DNA from: an uncultured Akkermansia sp.
GTDB taxonomy: Bacteria > Verrucomicrobiota > Verrucomicrobiia > Verrucomicrobiales > Akkermansiaceae
Length of the DNA stretch: 64,000 nt
Direction: 5' to 3'
Assembly: GCA_947588735.1 (NCBI GenBank)
Contig: CANQAD010000003.1
Coordinates: 1-64,000, forward strand
The position numbers were made by a program, and so were the translations under genes. The first letter of the stretch is position 1. Each line of letters opens with the position of its first letter. Shown piece by piece: positions 8,160 through 43,734 of this stretch. The notes under the pieces were generated by a model. It saw nothing but the letters and a program-made list of their open reading frames with translations. It did no database searches and was not told the DNA's origin.

Positions 8160-9416
8160 ATGAAAGACCGACGAATTGTCATCACAGGCATTGGCGCGCT
8201 TTCCCCCCTCGGCAATAGCGCCGCTGACACATGGGAAGCCATGAAAAATGGAAAATGCGGCATCGGACACATCGAGAGCCTGGAGGGTGTAGAAAATTTC
8301 CCTGTTCAAATAGCTGGCGAGGTTAAGGGATTCGACCCCGCTCCATATTTTCTAAAAGATCCGAAGGCTGTGCGTCGTTGTGACCGCTTTGAGCAGCTCG
8401 CTATGGCGGCCACCGTGATGGCCATGAAGGATGCCTCGCTCGACCCCGAAAAGGTGGACCGCAATCGCGTGGGCGTGATGATCGGGTCAGGCATTGGCGG
8501 ATTAGGTATCCATGGGCAAAACTGCGAATTGCTTATCAAATCCGGGATGCGCCGTGTCTCCCCCTTCTGCATCCCTTACATGATCACCAATATGGCCAGT
8601 GGCATGGTAAGTATTGAGTTCGGCTTTGGTGGTCCCAACATGAGCATCTCAACGGCCTGCGCCACTTCAAATCACTCCATCGGCGAGGCTTGGCGCATCA
8701 TGAAGTTCGGGGATGCGGACGTGATGATCTGCGGCGGAGCGGAAGCTTCCATCCTTCCCATCGGCATCGCCGGGTTTGCCAATATGAAGGCCCTCTCGAC
8801 CCGCAATGATGATCCCGCCACGGCCTCCCGCCCCTACGATATTGATCGCGATGGCTTTGTGATGGGCGAGGGCGCAGGGGTGATCGTGCTGGAGACGTTG
8901 GAGCACGCGCAGGCACGCGGGGCGCGCATTTTGGCGGAGCTGGTGGGCTACGGACTAAGCGCAGACGGCTACCACCTGACATCCCCCATGCCGGAAGGCG
9001 AAGGAGCGGCCCGCTGCATGCAGATGGCGTTGGACCACGCCGGGCTGCACCCGCAGGACGTGGACTATGTGAACACACACGGAACTTCTACGCACTTGGG
9101 CGATATCTGCGAGGTGAAAGCCATCAAGCAAACCTTTGGCGACTACGCCAAGAACGGTCTCGTGGTGAGCTCAACCAAATCCATGACCGGGCACCTGCTG
9201 GGCGCTGCCGGCGGCATTGAGCTGCTCGCCTGTGTGATGGCAATTCGCGACAACTTCATCCCGCCGACGATCAATGTCTTCAACCAAGACCCGGAATGCG
9301 ACTTGGACGTCTGCGCCAATTCCGGTCGCAGCCATGCCGTCCATGTCGCGCTCAGCAACTCCTTTGGCTTTGGCGGCCATAATGCCTCGCTCATTGTCAA
9401 GCGCTTTGCCGACTGA
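8160..9416 (+). CDS. fabF: 3-oxoacyl-ACP synthase II
   Basis: KAS II signature: STACATSNHSIGEAW, NTHGTSTHLGD, STKSMTGHLLGAAGG. Confidence 0.96.
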   Translation: MKDRRIVITGIGALSPLGNSAADTWEAMKNGKCGIGHIESLEGVENFPVQIAGEVKGFDPAPYFLKDPKAVRRCDRFEQLAMAATVMAMKDASLDPEKVDRNRVGVMIGSGIGGLGIHGQNCELLIKSGMRRVSPFCIPYMITNMASGMVSIEFGFGGPNMSISTACATSNHSIGEAWRIMKFGDADVMICGGAEASILPIGIAGFANMKALSTRNDDPATASRPYDIDRDGFVMGEGAGVIVLETLEHAQARGARILAELVGYGLSADGYHLTSPMPEGEGAARCMQMALDHAGLHPQDVDYVNTHGTSTHLGDICEVKAIKQTFGDYAKNGLVVSSTKSMTGHLLGAAGGIELLACVMAIRDNFIPPTINVFNQDPECDLDVCANSGRSHAVHVALSNSFGFGGHNASLIVKRFAD

Positions 9417-9446: not shown

Positions 9447-9926
9447 ATGCTGCATCGCCTTTCCACAGCTCTGCGCCGCCAACTGGAATTCTTGGTGCAG
9501 CGCGGAGCGCAGGATGGTTTTATGCTGCGCTGGGCCATCCTGAGCTTCGGGGTCCTGGCGGGGATTGTGGCGCTGCAAGCATGCCGGGCATTTCGATTTC
9601 TGGATGAGGCGCAGCTGGTGGTGCTGGCAGGACACCCGTTTTACCTGAGTGCGCAGGATGCCCAAGTTTCCCTGCTTTCGTCGGCCGGACAATTCGCGCT
9701 TTGCGTCATTGTCACGCTGTACTTTGGCGGCGTGCTCATGATGCAAAGGCGCATGGGTCGACGCAGTCACATTTGTCTGCTGGCCGCAGTTGTCTTTGCC
9801 CTGCCAGGGCTGCTGTGCGTACTTTGGCACGGCGTGCTCTACGTAAGCCAGGTGCTCACCTGTATCCTGCTGCTCTGGGTGATTCTCGTTCCCATTTCTG
9901 CCTGCTTTCGCCTCCGCCGTTCATGA
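9447..9926 (+). CDS. Hypothetical multi-pass membrane protein
   Basis: 159-aa ORF with several hydrophobic segments between fabF and recR; its end overlaps the recR start. Confidence 0.6.
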   Translation: MLHRLSTALRRQLEFLVQRGAQDGFMLRWAILSFGVLAGIVALQACRAFRFLDEAQLVVLAGHPFYLSAQDAQVSLLSSAGQFALCVIVTLYFGGVLMMQRRMGRRSHICLLAAVVFALPGLLCVLWHGVLYVSQVLTCILLLWVILVPISACFRLRRS

Positions 9927-36725: not shown

Positions 36726-38621
36726 TCATCTGCTTGCACAGATATCGCGGAGCCTGGGCAGAATGTCTGTGTTGATGGAGAGAATGAGGATCTCCGGCTT
36801 AAAGGCGAGAATTTCCTTTTTGTGCAACTTGAGGATTTTAAACTCGTCGGACGCCTTGATCCATCCCGTGTTAAGTCTGATGTATTTCGTTTGAGCCGCT
36901 GAGTAAGGTAAGAATTGGAGGAGATTCTCGCTTTGTGATGTACCAAACAGCATGATTTTATGCTTCCCCTCAGGGTAAACGAAATCCTTGGTAAACTTCC
37001 CAATTTTAACCGACATCTTGCCGCTGTTCTTGTGATCGTAGTAATGATGGAGACAGGGTGGTGTTGCGGGGATTCTTTGAAGATTGCAAAAACGGTAGAG
37101 ATAACCCGGGTAATAATTTCGTGACCAATCATCGCGGATCAGTCGATTTTGGGATTGGTTGTAATTATCAAGGGATGCCACGGGCATGTCCGGATAATCT
37201 CTGCCTATTTCTTTCATAAGCTCACGATAGCCGACAAATGCACCCCAATCTGTCCAATGCCATGTCCTCTTGAAAAACACAAAATCGTCCTTAGCTGCAT
37301 CGCGAAGCGCCTCGTACGGGTAAACGTAGGGAATATGATGCTTCCTCACTTTGTTTCTGATCGTTTCTTGCACCTGAGAAGTTTTAACAAAGGCTCTCTC
37401 ATCAAATCCATATCTCCGCGAGAGAAGTCCCTTGTAAATACTTTCCTTTCGAGGCACCTCAAGGATGTAAAATCGGATTTTATTCTGTCGACAAAATTGG
37501 TTCAATTGAAGCAGGTTTTGCACAATAGAGCGGATGAAAGCAGGATTGTCATTCATTTTGGAGACGAGAGGCTTAAGGAAAAACCAGTCGTCTTTCTTGA
37601 AATAAATGGCATTTCGCGCACAGATAGCGCGGGACAGTTCATTCCGGATGACGTCGTGCAGCCTCATGAGGGCAGTGTGCCCACAAAAATGGTCGTTGAA
37701 CCAATTTTCATACCGTCTCCCATAGTCAGACTGCTCTTTAAAGATATCCTTCCACTCAGGCTTCACGGCAAGCATTCTGTTTCCCCGCACAGATCTTACG
37801 GCATCTGAAATATCAAGCATCGGAATAAACAGGCAGGAAAAGAACGTGATTAAAAGAAGAGTATTGCTCAATCGCAGTCGCTCCCGGTTTTTGGCAAAGA
37901 TGGAAAGTAGGCACCAACTCAGGGAGAAGAACAACAAATTCCCGGTGATAATGTACCAGACCTTCCCGGATTTCAGCAATGTAAAATCGTGAACAGAAAA
38001 GGGATGCCGACGAAACTCAACTTCTATCTGAACGCATTCATGTTTCCGGACAGGAATAGATTGGGCGTGTTTCCCTATGTAGGGGAAATTCCCGGGATCA
38101 GCGAACATTAAATCATAGTTAAAGCGAGGAAGCTCATACTTTTTCTCAGGAATGTATTTGGCGTCATTTCCCACGTACGAAAAAGTCCTGGGCTCAGTAA
38201 AGGCCACCTTGTCGTTAATTTTCAAATTCCTCCAATCTGTCAGGGCGGCAAAGGGTTCATCGTCGTCATTGCGGGCATTCGGTCCTCTCAACAGCACGGT
38301 GATCTTACCATCTTGAAGAGCCTCGACTTGAAAAGAGAGTTTCTGCCATCTCCTTCTTGCCCTCAGATTCAGATTAGCCCGTCGAGAATTTCTCGCCTCA
38401 TATCCGTACCAGTAAGTGGCAGTTACGGGTTGAGAAAGAGATTGGAGGAAGAATGGTTCAGTCCCGGTAAGTTTGCCGGAATACACCAAGTCAAGGCGAG
38501 CCTCTTTGTTGGAAAGGGTCCGAATAAAACTGCCATAGTCATACTCTGTCCACAAGGGCAGACATAAGACGTTAAAGAAGATGGTTACCAATACGGAAAC
38601 CACGAACCTCTTGCCGGTCAT
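36726..38621 (-). CDS. AlgX/AlgJ-like (SGNH-type) O-acetyltransferase-related membrane protein
   Basis: NWFNDHFCGHTALMRLHDVIRNEL..KKDDWFFLKP, FFKRTWHWTDWGAFVGYRELM; two TM segments and an N-terminal beta-rich domain. Confidence 0.75.
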   Translation of the reverse strand: MTGKRFVVSVLVTIFFNVLCLPLWTEYDYGSFIRTLSNKEARLDLVYSGKLTGTEPFFLQSLSQPVTATYWYGYEARNSRRANLNLRARRRWQKLSFQVEALQDGKITVLLRGPNARNDDDEPFAALTDWRNLKINDKVAFTEPRTFSYVGNDAKYIPEKKYELPRFNYDLMFADPGNFPYIGKHAQSIPVRKHECVQIEVEFRRHPFSVHDFTLLKSGKVWYIITGNLLFFSLSWCLLSIFAKNRERLRLSNTLLLITFFSCLFIPMLDISDAVRSVRGNRMLAVKPEWKDIFKEQSDYGRRYENWFNDHFCGHTALMRLHDVIRNELSRAICARNAIYFKKDDWFFLKPLVSKMNDNPAFIRSIVQNLLQLNQFCRQNKIRFYILEVPRKESIYKGLLSRRYGFDERAFVKTSQVQETIRNKVRKHHIPYVYPYEALRDAAKDDFVFFKRTWHWTDWGAFVGYRELMKEIGRDYPDMPVASLDNYNQSQNRLIRDDWSRNYYPGYLYRFCNLQRIPATPPCLHHYYDHKNSGKMSVKIGKFTKDFVYPEGKHKIMLFGTSQSENLLQFLPYSAAQTKYIRLNTGWIKASDEFKILKLHKKEILAFKPEILILSINTDILPRLRDICASR

Positions 38622-38723
38622 AAATCAATTGGATATAATGAAATAAGGCCACACCGCTCTGCCGCATCCAATCTTGCTCTCTACATCTCACGAAACGGGG
38701 GTTCAGAGAAGACTTCGCTACCC

Positions 38724-38858
38724 TCAACTCGACGTAATTTGCTTTTTAAACCTCTCCGAATGTTCGTCCTCCTTCAGCACGACCACTTGAGCGGGTATCT
38801 TGCAGGGAACGAGCCGGGTCTTGCATATCCCCCTGGAAAGAATATTTTCCCGGTTTTT
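38724..38858 (-). pseudogene. C-terminal remnant of an AMP-dependent acyl ligase
   Basis: Minus-strand translation ...SRGICKTRLVPCKIPAQVVVLKEDEHSERFKKQITSS* resembles an ANL-ligase C-terminus. The frame is closed by a stop inside the ACP end, so no N-terminal part remains. Confidence 0.5.
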
Positions 38859-38859
38859 C

Positions 38860-39102
38860 CTACCCTATTTTCTGCAGGATGAGGTCCACCATCTCGCCGA
38901 CATTGTGCAAGTTCACAACCTCCTTCATGGCGAAACGAAAGCCGAACTCCTGCTCGATGGCGGCAATGAGGCTGATGTGTGCCAAAGAATCCCACCCCTC
39001 CACGTCATCAGCCGTGGTGGTATCGGTAAGCTCAATTTCCTCGAGGTCAAGGTTTTCTTTGAATATCTCCGTCAATTTGGCGTATATTTCGTCTCTATTC
39101 AT
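38860..39102 (-). CDS. Acyl carrier protein
   Basis: DVEGWDSLAHISLIAAIEQEFGFRF (DSL phosphopantetheine motif). Confidence 0.92.
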   Translation of the reverse strand: MNRDEIYAKLTEIFKENLDLEEIELTDTTTADDVEGWDSLAHISLIAAIEQEFGFRFAMKEVVNLHNVGEMVDLILQKIG

Positions 39103-39103
39103 A

Positions 39104-40891
39104 TCAATGTTCGATGGTTATGATTGATTGTAAGTTTTTGTAGTTCTCCGTATCCCGGACCCACACGGTGTCGTCCCCGCGTGTTTCCGCAAGCGTGAAG
39201 CCAAAATCACGGTACAGCTCCGCAACCATGCCGTTTTTGGCGGTTCGATAATAGTATCCCCAGATTCGAGTAATCCCTCGTTCCATGGCGTGGCGCACCA
39301 TTTCATCCATCATCGCCTGCTCCATCCCCCGCTTCAGCACCCGGCAGCTCATGAGGAACAGCTCGATATGGAGGGTTTCCTTCTCCTGGCGTCCGATCAT
39401 GACGCTCACCACGCCATTATCCCCGAACTTATCCGTGAGCTTGCCGTAGAGGGTGATACAGTTCGGATCAGCCGCCGCAGCCTCAATCTCCGCCTGGGTG
39501 TACCGCTTCGTCGTGAGGTTAAACTGGTTGGATTTGTTGGTGAGCTGGGCAATGCGCGCCATGTACACTGCCGAAAACGGCTTGATTTCTGCGTGCATAT
39601 CCAGGGAGCGCAGGTAATCCTCATAATTCCCGAAACTCTGCGCCGCCTGCACGCGTTGTGCATTCGCCTTGTACATCTGCGTGCGGGCGAGGTCGTCCTG
39701 CGACAGCGAAGTCACCTCGAAAAAGCCCGCGCGGTCGATCTCGCGGATGTAGTTCTCGGGGCAGCTGATGGGCACCACACAGGCATGGGGCACCTGCGTG
39801 CTCACAATCTCGCGCTCAGCCGGGTTGTCGTCCACAAACACCAAACTTTCCGGCAGCAGGTTGAGCTCCTGAGCGATCTCTACCATGTTCCGGCTCTTCG
39901 GATTCCAGTTCGCCTTAATTGAGATAAAGTCCTCCTGCCGCAGCACACCCTCCGGATGGGCAAGCCCCGCCAGCGCATTCTCGCGGTCGTTCTTGGAGTT
40001 GATGTTCAGCAGCACGCCGAGACCCTGGTGCGCTTTCAGATACTGTTGGAACTCTTGGTAAGCCTGCGCAGCGGCGGTTTCCGAGCCTATTTCCAGATTC
40101 TGCACACCATCATCCCCCACAACGCCTCCCCACAGCGTGTTGTCCAGATCCAGCACAAAGCCCTTCTTGTTCTTCCCGTAGAGAGACTTGATGATACGCG
40201 CCACACTGTGCGCCAGGCAGGGAATAGCCTCGATGCGGCAGCAATACTTGTACAGGTACCACGCGGATAAATCATGCCAGCGGGGTAATCCATAATCCGC
40301 CGCCACGTAATTGAGATCGTGGATGTGGAAGTTCTCGTGACTTTGGGCGTAATCGTAGAACGCCGCATTGAGGTGCTGGATGTAGTTAGTGAGCCCATGG
40401 ATGTCGGAAGCGTCCTTGTTGCCCAGCAGGCGGTAAAAGGGGTATTCAAAGTTGTTCTGGATGATGGTGCATCCCAATTCCTCCGTACATTTCTCCCACA
40501 TCCCACGGAAACGCCCTACCTCCGCCTCATATTTCTCCTCCACCTCTTCCCGGGTATCACGGGTATCGGGGGTGTGGAGGATATTGCGGTAGGAGGTATG
40601 GAACCAGACAATATCCGGCCGGAAGCTCTTAAGCTCCTCGTTATTGAACATCACCTCCTCGTAGTACTGGTTGTACTCACATTCGTAGAACTCCGCTTCA
40701 ATACCGTTGTAAAGCAGGAAGAGGTCGAGGATCTCGCGGATATCATGCGTCGTGGAGCCGCCGAGGATAGCGATTTTCTTCTGAACTCGCTTCTCGCCGG
40801 TCTTCAGCAAAAGCTTACGTATCGTGTTGCGTTTCCGTAGCACGAGCCCCGGATCCGTTGGGTATTGCAGCTGGTAGAGGAGGTCATTCAT
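39104..40891 (-). CDS. FkbH-type HAD-IIIC family protein
   Basis: FVLDLDNTLWGGVVGDDG, LVFVDDNPAEREIV, C-terminal GNAT-like KFGDNGVVSVMIG. Confidence 0.92.
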   Translation of the reverse strand: MNDLLYQLQYPTDPGLVLRKRNTIRKLLLKTGEKRVQKKIAILGGSTTHDIREILDLFLLYNGIEAEFYECEYNQYYEEVMFNNEELKSFRPDIVWFHTSYRNILHTPDTRDTREEVEEKYEAEVGRFRGMWEKCTEELGCTIIQNNFEYPFYRLLGNKDASDIHGLTNYIQHLNAAFYDYAQSHENFHIHDLNYVAADYGLPRWHDLSAWYLYKYCCRIEAIPCLAHSVARIIKSLYGKNKKGFVLDLDNTLWGGVVGDDGVQNLEIGSETAAAQAYQEFQQYLKAHQGLGVLLNINSKNDRENALAGLAHPEGVLRQEDFISIKANWNPKSRNMVEIAQELNLLPESLVFVDDNPAEREIVSTQVPHACVVPISCPENYIREIDRAGFFEVTSLSQDDLARTQMYKANAQRVQAAQSFGNYEDYLRSLDMHAEIKPFSAVYMARIAQLTNKSNQFNLTTKRYTQAEIEAAAADPNCITLYGKLTDKFGDNGVVSVMIGRQEKETLHIELFLMSCRVLKRGMEQAMMDEMVRHAMERGITRIWGYYYRTAKNGMVAELYRDFGFTLAETRGDDTVWVRDTENYKNLQSIITIEH

Positions 40892-42287
40892 AGATTAATT
40901 CTTTCTCGAATTGTTGCATCGCGGGAAATAACACATCTTCCGCCTCCGCTGCCTCCACGGGCAGCAGCACCTGAGTCTGCGCGGTATGAATTCGAGGAAA
41001 CCTCGGCATGTACATACGCACCCCTTTCTTTTTGTCCGCATTCATCGCACGCCCCCAGCATTCCATCGCTTCTTTCGCCATCGCGTACTCCACCATGTCT
41101 TTCGGAAGTTCGTCAATAAACACTGTTGAAGGAGCAAAGACATTTCTCAGTCCCATTGGCTTCAGTTGTTCAATAAGACGATTCAATGCAAAAATGTAAT
41201 ACAGACAGAAAGTCGAGAACTTTTCCTCGCTGATGCTTTTCCCAGACGGACTTATCTTCGGCGTCGCGAAATAGTAAAGATGAGTGGGAGCAAAGGCGCG
41301 TATCTTCTCCAGCGAATCGGCTGTGGGCTGCGCAGCATCTAACTGCACGGCCTCCACCGTGCAACCATAGTCCCGAAGCTCATCGAGAAGATTCATTGTG
41401 TCTGCAATAGATTTATTATAAGTAGTTAATACCCACCCCGACTAACCGATTGCGAGCAACCTCGCGCACTGCATACCGATACCTCGGCTGGCGCCGACAA
41501 CAAGAGCTCGCTGGCGAGAAAAGTCGCCTATCAATTTTTTCTCGAGCAGCACGGAGATGGGGTTGTACTGGATAACGGGAGGACGGAAAAACGCGCTGAG
41601 TTCGCCCTGCACGAAAGGAGCTTGCAGGGAAACCTTACACTCACCGAAAAGGGATTGCTGGGGTACAGCCTCGCAGCAGACTGTAGCGCTGAAAGGAACA
41701 ACCGGGAGCTTGAAGCGAAGGTTGAGACCGCGGAAGAGGGAATCCTGCCCTGGGTAGCGCATGCCGATGATACGGGTAGCAGCCAGCAAAGAACCCAAAT
41801 TGACCGCATGAATCATTGCGCCAGCATTGGAAAAAAGACTACGGCAGAAAGCAGCATCGTAGCCAACCGTATCCTCAAAGCTCACCGGTACATCGCGCTG
41901 GGAGGTAGACGGACACGCGGGGAAGTCATCCGGTTTTGCCGCCTGCCCTGGGTCTGTGTGGGGAGTGTACTGGATCTTGACCTTGGAGAAGACCGCAGCG
42001 GGGTCCTTCACGCTCAGAATGGCACTGCCCTCCCCGACTTTCACGTCAATCTCAAAACATTCACCCACAGCGAGCGGTCGTCGAAATTCGGCCTTGATAC
42101 TTGTAATGAACACGGGCTGCTGCATCTGCCTCGCGAACTCCTCCAGGCAAAGCATCACCTGCTGCACACCGTACACGATTTGCCCACCGAACATGGTTTG
42201 CCGTGCATACTGCTCATCCACATGCACGGGATTGAAGTCACCGGAGAGCCGAGCGAATTGCTCCGCATCGCTGCTGTTGACAATCAT
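40884..42287 (-). pseudogene. MaoC-like dehydratase/SDR fusion interrupted by an in-frame amber (TAG) codon
   Basis: ORFs 41442-42287 and 40884-41396 are in the same frame. The first ends RALVVGASRGIGMQCARLLAIG*; readthrough gives SGWVLTTYNKSIADTMNLLDELRDYG... with YAMAK downstream. Confidence 0.75.
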
Positions 42288-42288
42288 A

Positions 42289-43734
42289 TCAGAAACGGAA
42301 ATAAATAAACGGGTTGTACGTGGAAGCAGCTATTGAAGCGGCAGATAGAATAAAGAGAGCCATCAGCCAGATATTCAACGCCCCCACGCACAGCTGACTC
42401 TTCCCTTCATCCACGACCATCCGCTTGCATAATGGCGCGGAGCAGACGATACCCACGATGAGTGCGATAATCTCAATGCGATCCACGTAGTAGATGAGGT
42501 GGTACATGGTCTCTCCTCTTTCTGCTCCGAACATGGTCAAAAGGTAATGCCAGGCGTAAGTCATGGTGTCTGACCGGAATATGACGAACCCAAGGATAAT
42601 GACCAGCAGGGCGTAAAGATGTTGTATAAACTTGCCAAACAGGCTTTTACGTTCACGGCTCCACCCCGTGATAATTTCCAAGAAAATGAAGAAGCCGTTA
42701 TAGAGACCCCAGACAATAAAGGACCAAGCGGCTCCATGCCAGAATCCGGTCGAAAACCAAACGACAACCAAAGAAATGACCGTAATGAGTGTATTGGTCA
42801 ATTTCCTACCTACATGTTTGCAGAGAAAAGAGTAAGGTTTAGAAAGCGTAAGAGTACGCGAGAGCGGCAAGAACATATAGTCCCTGAACCAGCTTCCCAG
42901 CGATATGTGCCAACGTCGCCAATATTCGGAGATTGATTTCGAGATGTACGGATAGTTGAAGTTCTCCAGGAATTTGAACCCGAAGATGGAGCCGAGGCCG
43001 ATCGCCATATCCGAGTACCCGCTGAAGTCGTAGTAGATCTGCAACGTGTAGCAGATTGCTCCCAGCCAAGTGGTCACGCAGTCCAGTTGGTCAATCGGTT
43101 GCGTAAAAACTTTATCCGCCACAGCTCCCAGCGTATTGGCGAGGAGAACTTTCTTGGCGAGTCCCACGATGAAGCGTTTCACGCCATAGGTCACTTTCTC
43201 GAAGTCCACGGTGCGATGTTCAATTTGGTCGGCTACATCGTGGTATTTAACGATAGGACCTGCCACCAACTGCGGGAAAAGCGTGATGTAGAGCGCGAGC
43301 TTGTAGATGTTTTTCTGCGGCTCAACTTCCTCCCGGTAAACATCCACAACATAGCTGATGGCTTGGAAGGTGTAGAAGGAGATGCCGATAGGCATGATGA
43401 CCTTGATGAAGTCGATATGCCCGCCGAAAAGCTCGTTGACGTTCTCGACAAAGAAGTTGAAGTACTTGAAATAGAACAGAAAGCTCAAGTCTCCCAGGAT
43501 GGTGAGCAGAAGCAGAGTCTTCTTATACTTGTACTTCGAGATCAGAATGGCACCGACGTAGTTGATGATGATGGTGAGCAGCATGACCGCCACGTACCGA
43601 GGCTCGCCCCAGGCGTAGAAGAAAATGCTGGCCAAGAGCAGGACGTAATCCTTCAGCTCTTTCCTCACCAGAAGGTAGAGGGCACACACGATCGGCAGGA
43701 ACAAAAACAGAAATGTCGTGGATGAGAATAACAT
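42289..43734 (-). CDS. MBOAT family O-acyltransferase (AlgI-like)
   Basis: YYFKYFNFF, FPQLVAGPIVKYHDVADQI, FKFLENFNYPYISKSISEYWRRWHISLGSWFRDYMFLPL, FWHGAAWSFIVWGLYNG. Confidence 0.94.
   Translation of the reverse strand: MLFSSTTFLFLFLPIVCALYLLVRKELKDYVLLLASIFFYAWGEPRYVAVMLLTIIINYVGAILISKYKYKKTLLLLTILGDLSFLFYFKYFNFFVENVNELFGGHIDFIKVIMPIGISFYTFQAISYVVDVYREEVEPQKNIYKLALYITLFPQLVAGPIVKYHDVADQIEHRTVDFEKVTYGVKRFIVGLAKKVLLANTLGAVADKVFTQPIDQLDCVTTWLGAICYTLQIYYDFSGYSDMAIGLGSIFGFKFLENFNYPYISKSISEYWRRWHISLGSWFRDYMFLPLSRTLTLSKPYSFLCKHVGRKLTNTLITVISLVVVWFSTGFWHGAAWSFIVWGLYNGFFIFLEIITGWSRERKSLFGKFIQHLYALLVIILGFVIFRSDTMTYAWHYLLTMFGAERGETMYHLIYYVDRIEIIALIVGIVCSAPLCKRMVVDEGKSQLCVGALNIWLMALFILSAASIAASTYNPFIYFRF

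Follow-up and report, generated by a model that had tools for sequence, protein, structure and literature searches.

What does a bacterium attach, and to what, with an operon that places a membrane-bound acyltransferase beside an FkbH-type protein and a carrier protein? The question is raised by positions 43734-36726, on the minus strand, of a 64,000-nucleotide stretch of DNA from an uncultured Akkermansia species (assembly GCA_947588735.1, contig CANQAD010000003.1, positions 1 to 64,000), the whole of which we call the window. The operon is flanked by recA and queE and runs in the order MBOAT, MaoC-SDR (a MaoC dehydratase joined to a short-chain dehydrogenase/reductase, SDR), FkbH, acyl carrier protein (ACP), a scrap of an AMP-forming ligase (AMP-ligase) and an AlgX-like protein. 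An earlier note on this DNA had proposed that it decorates an exported glycan with glyceryl or lactyl groups. All six elements lie where that note had placed them, and the close packing it described for the first four genes was borne out by measurement (1 nt for MBOAT/MaoC-SDR, -8 nt for MaoC-SDR/FkbH and 1 nt for FkbH/ACP); 238 nt separate the ACP from the start of the AlgX-like gene. We found that FkbH, its own ACP and MBOAT form a real, recurrent gene set. Judged from sequence and by analogy, it appears reasonably likely that they constitute a Dlt-like system for acylation from a glyceryl donor, in which FkbH would take the role of DltA.

FkbH proteins convert 1,3-bisphosphoglycerate to carrier-bound glyceryl (PMC7489565, PMC8949500, PMC13122637). 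The FkbH of the operon scored 283 bits against TIGR01686 (cut-off 147), its HAD residues D248, D250, T252, K332, D354 and D355 are invariant in the FkbH alignment, and its C-terminal domain matches GNAT acyltransferases in a structure model with a predicted local distance difference test (pLDDT) score of 89. The earlier note had made its proposal depend on an acyl-transfer Cys in this protein, and such a residue is present: Cys516 of the GNAT-like domain is invariant in a 40-sequence alignment and shared by 97% or more of 78 homologues, and it would be the residue that carries glyceryl. Like BF1531 of Bacteroides fragilis (PDB 3slr), the protein carries FkbH_N as an additional domain. By family precedent, FkbH would dephosphorylate 1,3-bisphosphoglycerate and load glyceryl on the ACP via the GNAT-like domain.

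DltB takes its acyl donor from the carrier protein DltC. The MBOAT of the operon matches the DltB structure in the PDB (6bug; E=8e-27) with the His of its GFWHG motif aligned, and so has both the homology and the catalytic His of the MBOAT in a Dlt-type carrier-protein system; its match to TIGR04091 (E=2e-46) lies below the family cut-off. The ACP, 1 nt past FkbH, is placed as the dedicated carrier of such a system would be. In place of a DltA-type AMP-forming ligase stands FkbH, and the ligase survives only as a scrap, which indicates that a cassette of the ACP/FabG/AMP-ligase type once stood in the window. The likeness to DltABCD, which D-alanylates teichoic acids, thus comprises the MBOAT (DltB), a dedicated carrier (a DltC-like ACP), a charging enzyme and a membrane-anchored SGNH-like partner (DltD), and a DltA-like cassette (ACP, FabG, AMP-ligase) adjoins the same MBOAT in congeners. 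Unlike DltABCD, the operon belongs to a Gram-negative lineage, its charging enzyme would be FkbH, its partner protein is AlgX/DHHW-like, and tailoring enzymes would act on the carrier-bound group. On the model of the DltB/DltC and AlgI/AlgX systems, holo-ACP would hand the acyl group to the MBOAT at the membrane's inner face, and the MBOAT and its AlgX-like partner together would attach it to an exported surface glycan.

The neighbourhood survey that the earlier note had suggested showed that the set recurs, with MaoC and SDR as an optional module. The 80 nearest FkbH loci listed from 85,462 species, an incomplete sample, were chosen by FkbH similarity alone; gut Clostridia make up most of them, and the others include Alphaproteobacteria, Synergistaceae and Treponema. 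Genes were counted in the 55 listed loci that had over 3 kb of sequence on either side. An ACP was present in 53 of the 55 loci, MBOAT in 46 (about 1.2 expected by chance) and MaoC in 13 (about 0.12 expected), followed by AlgX/DHHW proteins (12), SDR (8), split transketolase (6) and VOC proteins (4); most FkbH-ACP-MBOAT loci had neither MaoC nor SDR. The chance expectation was taken from ten of the surveyed genomes (35 Mb, with 51 MBOAT and 5 MaoC places), and these density controls led us to reject the possibility that the co-occurrence is an artefact of common genes. The SDR was found only alongside MaoC (8/8 loci; Fisher p=1e-6, with such p-values too strong because the loci are not fully independent), and MaoC also occurred without SDR. 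This restriction fits an order of dehydration by MaoC before reduction by SDR.

Within the genus, the MBOAT, mostly with an AlgX-like gene before it, precedes differing donor cassettes, and its paralogues likewise adjoin other cassettes (Table 1). The occurrence of alternative cassettes behind the same AlgX-MBOAT pair supports an acyl-export module fed by interchangeable ACP-bound acyl groups. Several of these loci lie amid cytidylyltransferase, glycosyltransferase and epimerase genes of surface polysaccharides, according to a reading of the sequences that was partly by scanning.

Table 1. Positions of the operon's features in the window, donor cassettes of the genus and a recurrent small gene of congeners.
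Feature	Location	Strand	Size and basis
AlgX/DHHW-like membrane-anchored protein	36726-38621	-	631 aa; PF16822 E=3e-12
AMP-ligase C-terminus scrap	38742-38825	-	84 nt, 87% identical to the end of the intact L019 gene
Stand-alone ACP	38860-39102	-	80 aa; PF00550; GWDSL phosphopantetheine site
FkbH-type protein	39104-40891	-	FkbH_N + HAD-IIIC + GNAT-like C-terminal domain
SDR remainder	40884-41396	-	Ser + YAMAK motif kept; MaoC frame, beyond the TAG
MaoC hot-dog dehydratase + second hot-dog domain + SDR start	41442-42287	-	PF01575 E=1e-12; SGDxNPVH kept; ends at in-frame TAG
MBOAT O-acyltransferase, DltB/AlgI-like	42289-43734	-	481 aa; PF03062 E=7e-17; GFWHG catalytic-His motif
Cassette MaoC-SDR/FkbH/ACP	G000 (genome of the window), G084, G195		
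Cassette FkbH without MaoC-SDR	L139		AlgX-MBOAT-FkbH
Cassette ACP/FabG/AMP-ligase	L141-L144, L146, L147, second copy in L019		
TIR-like protein	L142 3067-3636; L145 9301-9870; L146 9166-9732; L147 7118-7687		~189 aa

Whether glyceryl is the final group would depend on the MaoC-SDR gene. The earlier note had counted it as a member of the operon, and both of its parts are indeed there, 45 nt apart, with the SDR interrupted by a TAG in frame. In relatives the gene encodes a single protein (466 aa in loci L028 and L029, 459 aa in L031). The MaoC part has the hot-dog fold of the MaoC/(R)-hydratase family, with double hot-dog matches in the PDB, and its Asp-His dyad, D17 and H22 of SGDxNPxH, is invariant in the intact fusions; a structure model of the fusion, built from only 4 sequences (pLDDT 61), is usable for the hot-dog part alone. 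The SDR residues Ser, Tyr400 and Lys404 are kept in the intact copies. In the window the TAG splits the domain that would unite GxxxGxG with the Ser-Tyr-Lys residues, motifs that the relatives keep. A search of the whole draft assembly (2.2 Mb, 89% complete, with the operon on contig C3) using the fusion protein found no intact copy elsewhere. With the reductase half cut short and a second copy not found, this genome is unlikely to produce lactyl and has probably lost that step.

A congener is broken at this site by a different lesion. Its locus (L019, of G084) is frameshifted (9880-9900) by a 4-nt gap next to eight consecutive G, within the ~10 bp of the SDR where the window has its TAG (41430-41450). 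Ratios of nonsynonymous to synonymous substitution rates (dN/dS) between the window and its relatives were 0.14-0.15 for the SDR remainder, 0.17-0.19 for MaoC and 0.06-0.08 for FkbH, and these low values indicate that MaoC-SDR was functional for most of its history. Recoding of the TAG was rejected: it is a lone stop, the L019 gene is broken there by its frameshift, and congeners have two unbroken copies. A shared ancient pseudogene is unlikely, given the purifying selection on the SDR (dN/dS ~0.14) and the grouping of L019 with intact copies. The MaoC part shares 66% DNA identity with congeners and the FkbH protein is 97% identical to that of L019, which points to mosaic recombination, and a short converted tract may be common to the lesions of the window and L019. 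Between a VOC gene and MaoC-SDR, L019 also holds an FkbH N-terminus scrap (8927-9045; 28 aa, 75% identical), left behind by recombination of cassettes.

Reversible switching at this site would be a further explanation. The only run of at least eight G/C in L019 lies inside its MaoC-SDR gene, and the fusion gene of L031 is intact yet contains a run of nine G; with such runs in both genes, slipped-strand switching is possible, and the SDR lesion site may be a contingency locus. The capsule of Akkermansia muciniphila is phase-variable, and slipped-strand switching has been proposed for one of its capsule acyltransferases (PMC13343947). The window copy could instead be a dead remnant kept by chance, with function in relatives only. 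The TAG, the AMP-ligase scrap, a gene order that is odd compared with L029 (where AlgX stands upstream) and the distance of the operon from glycan clusters would all fit such decay, but the genes for FkbH (dN/dS 0.06-0.08), ACP and MBOAT are unbroken and highly conserved, and the operon has no breaks besides the SDR lesion and the ligase scrap, so that we consider a dead remnant rather unlikely. If the operon acts as a Dlt-like system in this genome, it would deliver an untailored group, either glyceryl or, if MaoC works alone, pyruvyl, or else it would be decaying or switched off.

The role of MaoC-SDR in intact loci was approached through the distribution of the fusion. In 77 genus genomes, queries with MaoC or MaoC-SDR hit full fusion loci of G000, G084 and G195 (two), and a MaoC-SDR query in 390 phylum genomes found one in G367, of another family; 5/5 of these loci adjoin FkbH and ACP. 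Two further fusions were reached via FkbH itself, in an alphaproteobacterial metagenome-assembled genome (L031: MBOAT, an open MaoC-SDR, FkbH, ACP) and on a Niveispirillum plasmid (L113: FkbH, ACP, a WcbI-type acyltransferase in MBOAT's stead, MaoC-SDR). All fusions found, in Verrucomicrobiota and Alphaproteobacteria, thus adjoin FkbH, and MaoC and SDR occur as separate genes in G095 (L020) and in many Clostridia. This exclusive proximity to FkbH, together with purifying selection on the SDR, argues for a linked role of MaoC-SDR in the intact loci. On chemical grounds, the MaoC half of full versions would eliminate the 3-hydroxyl of glyceryl-ACP to give enolpyruvyl/pyruvyl-ACP, which the SDR half would reduce to lactyl-ACP. 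For the lactyl starter of bryostatin, a route of FkbH loading, dehydration and reduction to D-lactyl-ACP has been proposed within a polyketide synthase (PKS) loading module; here, in contrast, the genes are separate and stand with an MBOAT. The lactyl route of the earlier note holds as to a recurrent MaoC-SDR module whose fused form was found only beside FkbH, and fails for the genome of the window as assembled, where the SDR is interrupted; in full loci MaoC-SDR probably remodels glyceryl to lactyl.

Alternatively, the acyl group might stay plain D-glyceryl throughout, the operon being a glyceryl ester transferase only and MaoC-SDR a side activity or an enzyme for another ACP substrate. The many loci that have FkbH, ACP and MBOAT alone, the AlgX-MBOAT-FkbH arrangement of L139 within the genus and the broken SDR of the window are all compatible with this, but it leaves the confinement of the fusion to FkbH loci and the selection on its SDR half unaccounted for, and we regard it as unlikely. 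That the product is a small secreted acylated metabolite or an amino-sugar amide, with no polymer ester, is improbable: FkbH is chiefly familiar from polyketide and nonribosomal peptide synthetase (NRPS) pathways, and the amino-sugar cluster of L020 has FkbH, MaoC and SDR with a GNAT-type transferase and no MBOAT, but neither the window nor the MBOAT loci contain PKS/NRPS genes, the pairing of MBOAT with an AlgX-like protein is that of glycan export, and several MBOAT loci of the genus lie inside polysaccharide clusters.

Four observations weigh against a Dlt-like system with lactyl tailoring. The AlgX-like protein has TWHW (window 37254-37274) where homologues have TDHHW, and so lacks the motif Asp; of the AlgX/DHHW catalytic triad (D-x-H + Ser), it does have the His and a GTS Ser. 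AlgX-like proteins of the genus have Thr or Gly in place of this Asp, and Clostridial homologues retain it. The missing Asp makes the role of this protein in transfer uncertain, and it is perhaps no transferase of the standard kind; of the AlgX/AlgJ-type partner proposed in the earlier note, the gene (PF16822) is thus confirmed and its function left in doubt. Secondly, the operon has no glycan cluster around it and one of its genes is broken. Thirdly, the SDR is more like beta-keto than alpha-keto reductases. Finally, some surveyed loci have MaoC and a split transketolase with no SDR, which a simple lactyl scheme does not explain; the transketolase (N and C subunits) follows FkbH in L036, L044, L046, L048, L053, L085 and L095, often with MaoC and MBOAT next, as a putative acyl-tailoring variant whose chemistry is not obvious.

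The Dlt-like reading also relates the operon to other known systems. With the O-acetylation systems AlgI/AlgJ/AlgX, WssH and PatA/PatB it shares an MBOAT and an SGNH/AlgX-type partner, which here too would act on an exported glycan. Those systems transfer acetyl, whereas this operon encodes its own ACP and enzymes for building the acyl group, and its AlgX-like protein is without the motif Asp. With the FkbH pathways of polyketides and nonribosomal peptides (methoxymalonyl-ACP, tetronates, suomilide, vioprolide; PMC7489565, PMC8949500, PMC13122637) it has FkbH, a stand-alone ACP and ACP-level tailoring in common; unlike them, it has no PKS/NRPS, and the partner is an MBOAT or another sugar acyltransferase. 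Searches of the open-licence literature found no papers on FkbH with MBOAT acting on polysaccharides (co-mentions concern cyanobacterial peptides), nothing relevant on a gellan glyceryl transferase and no usable paper on the bryostatin lactyl-loading precedent. The combination of glyceryl-ACP/FkbH with MBOAT for glycans was not found described there, and an earlier description may exist elsewhere. If correct, the system would link the chemistry of surface sugars straight to a glycolytic intermediate of high energy. In many gut bacteria it would extend the decorations moved by MBOAT proteins beyond acetyl and D-alanyl to hydroxyacid esters (glyceryl, lactyl), and it would account for the 'HAD-IIIC phosphatase + ACP + MBOAT' clusters that numerous genomes carry with no product assigned to them.

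The VOC protein of other loci has its closest match in methylmalonyl-CoA epimerase (TIGR03081, below cut-off), a likeness that suggests inversion of C2 of glyceryl-ACP. As a tentative and broader proposal, which we hold to be possible, surface-glycan esterification of this kind would be a widespread and hitherto undescribed class in gut bacteria: fed from 1,3-bisphosphoglycerate by FkbH and a dedicated ACP, with a C3 group optionally converted to lactyl (MaoC-SDR) or epimerised (VOC) and exported to polysaccharide by a DltB-like MBOAT, with cassettes swapped and some systems switched by mutable SDR tracts.

VOC, MBOAT, a TonB-receptor-annotated gene, ACP and FkbH stand in a row on Sinorhizobium meliloti pSymB (L114 4519-10398), and the FkbH gene is present in many pSymB records of this species. 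Next to a NeuB-like gene, locus L022 (G107 contig 24) combines a divergent FkbH with three β-ketoacyl-ACP synthase III (KAS III) genes, SDRs, VOC and ACP-AMP-ligase; this is a further pathway of carrier-bound acyl groups, one that probably serves a nonulosonic acid. The genome of the window has a second MBOAT (C68:11262-11996; N-half 98% identical) and an AMP-ligase end (C105:1-261), both at contig ends, which indicates more copies of the module where the assembly is broken. In several congener operons a small protein, TIR-domain-like by eye, lies between MBOAT and ACP (Table 1).

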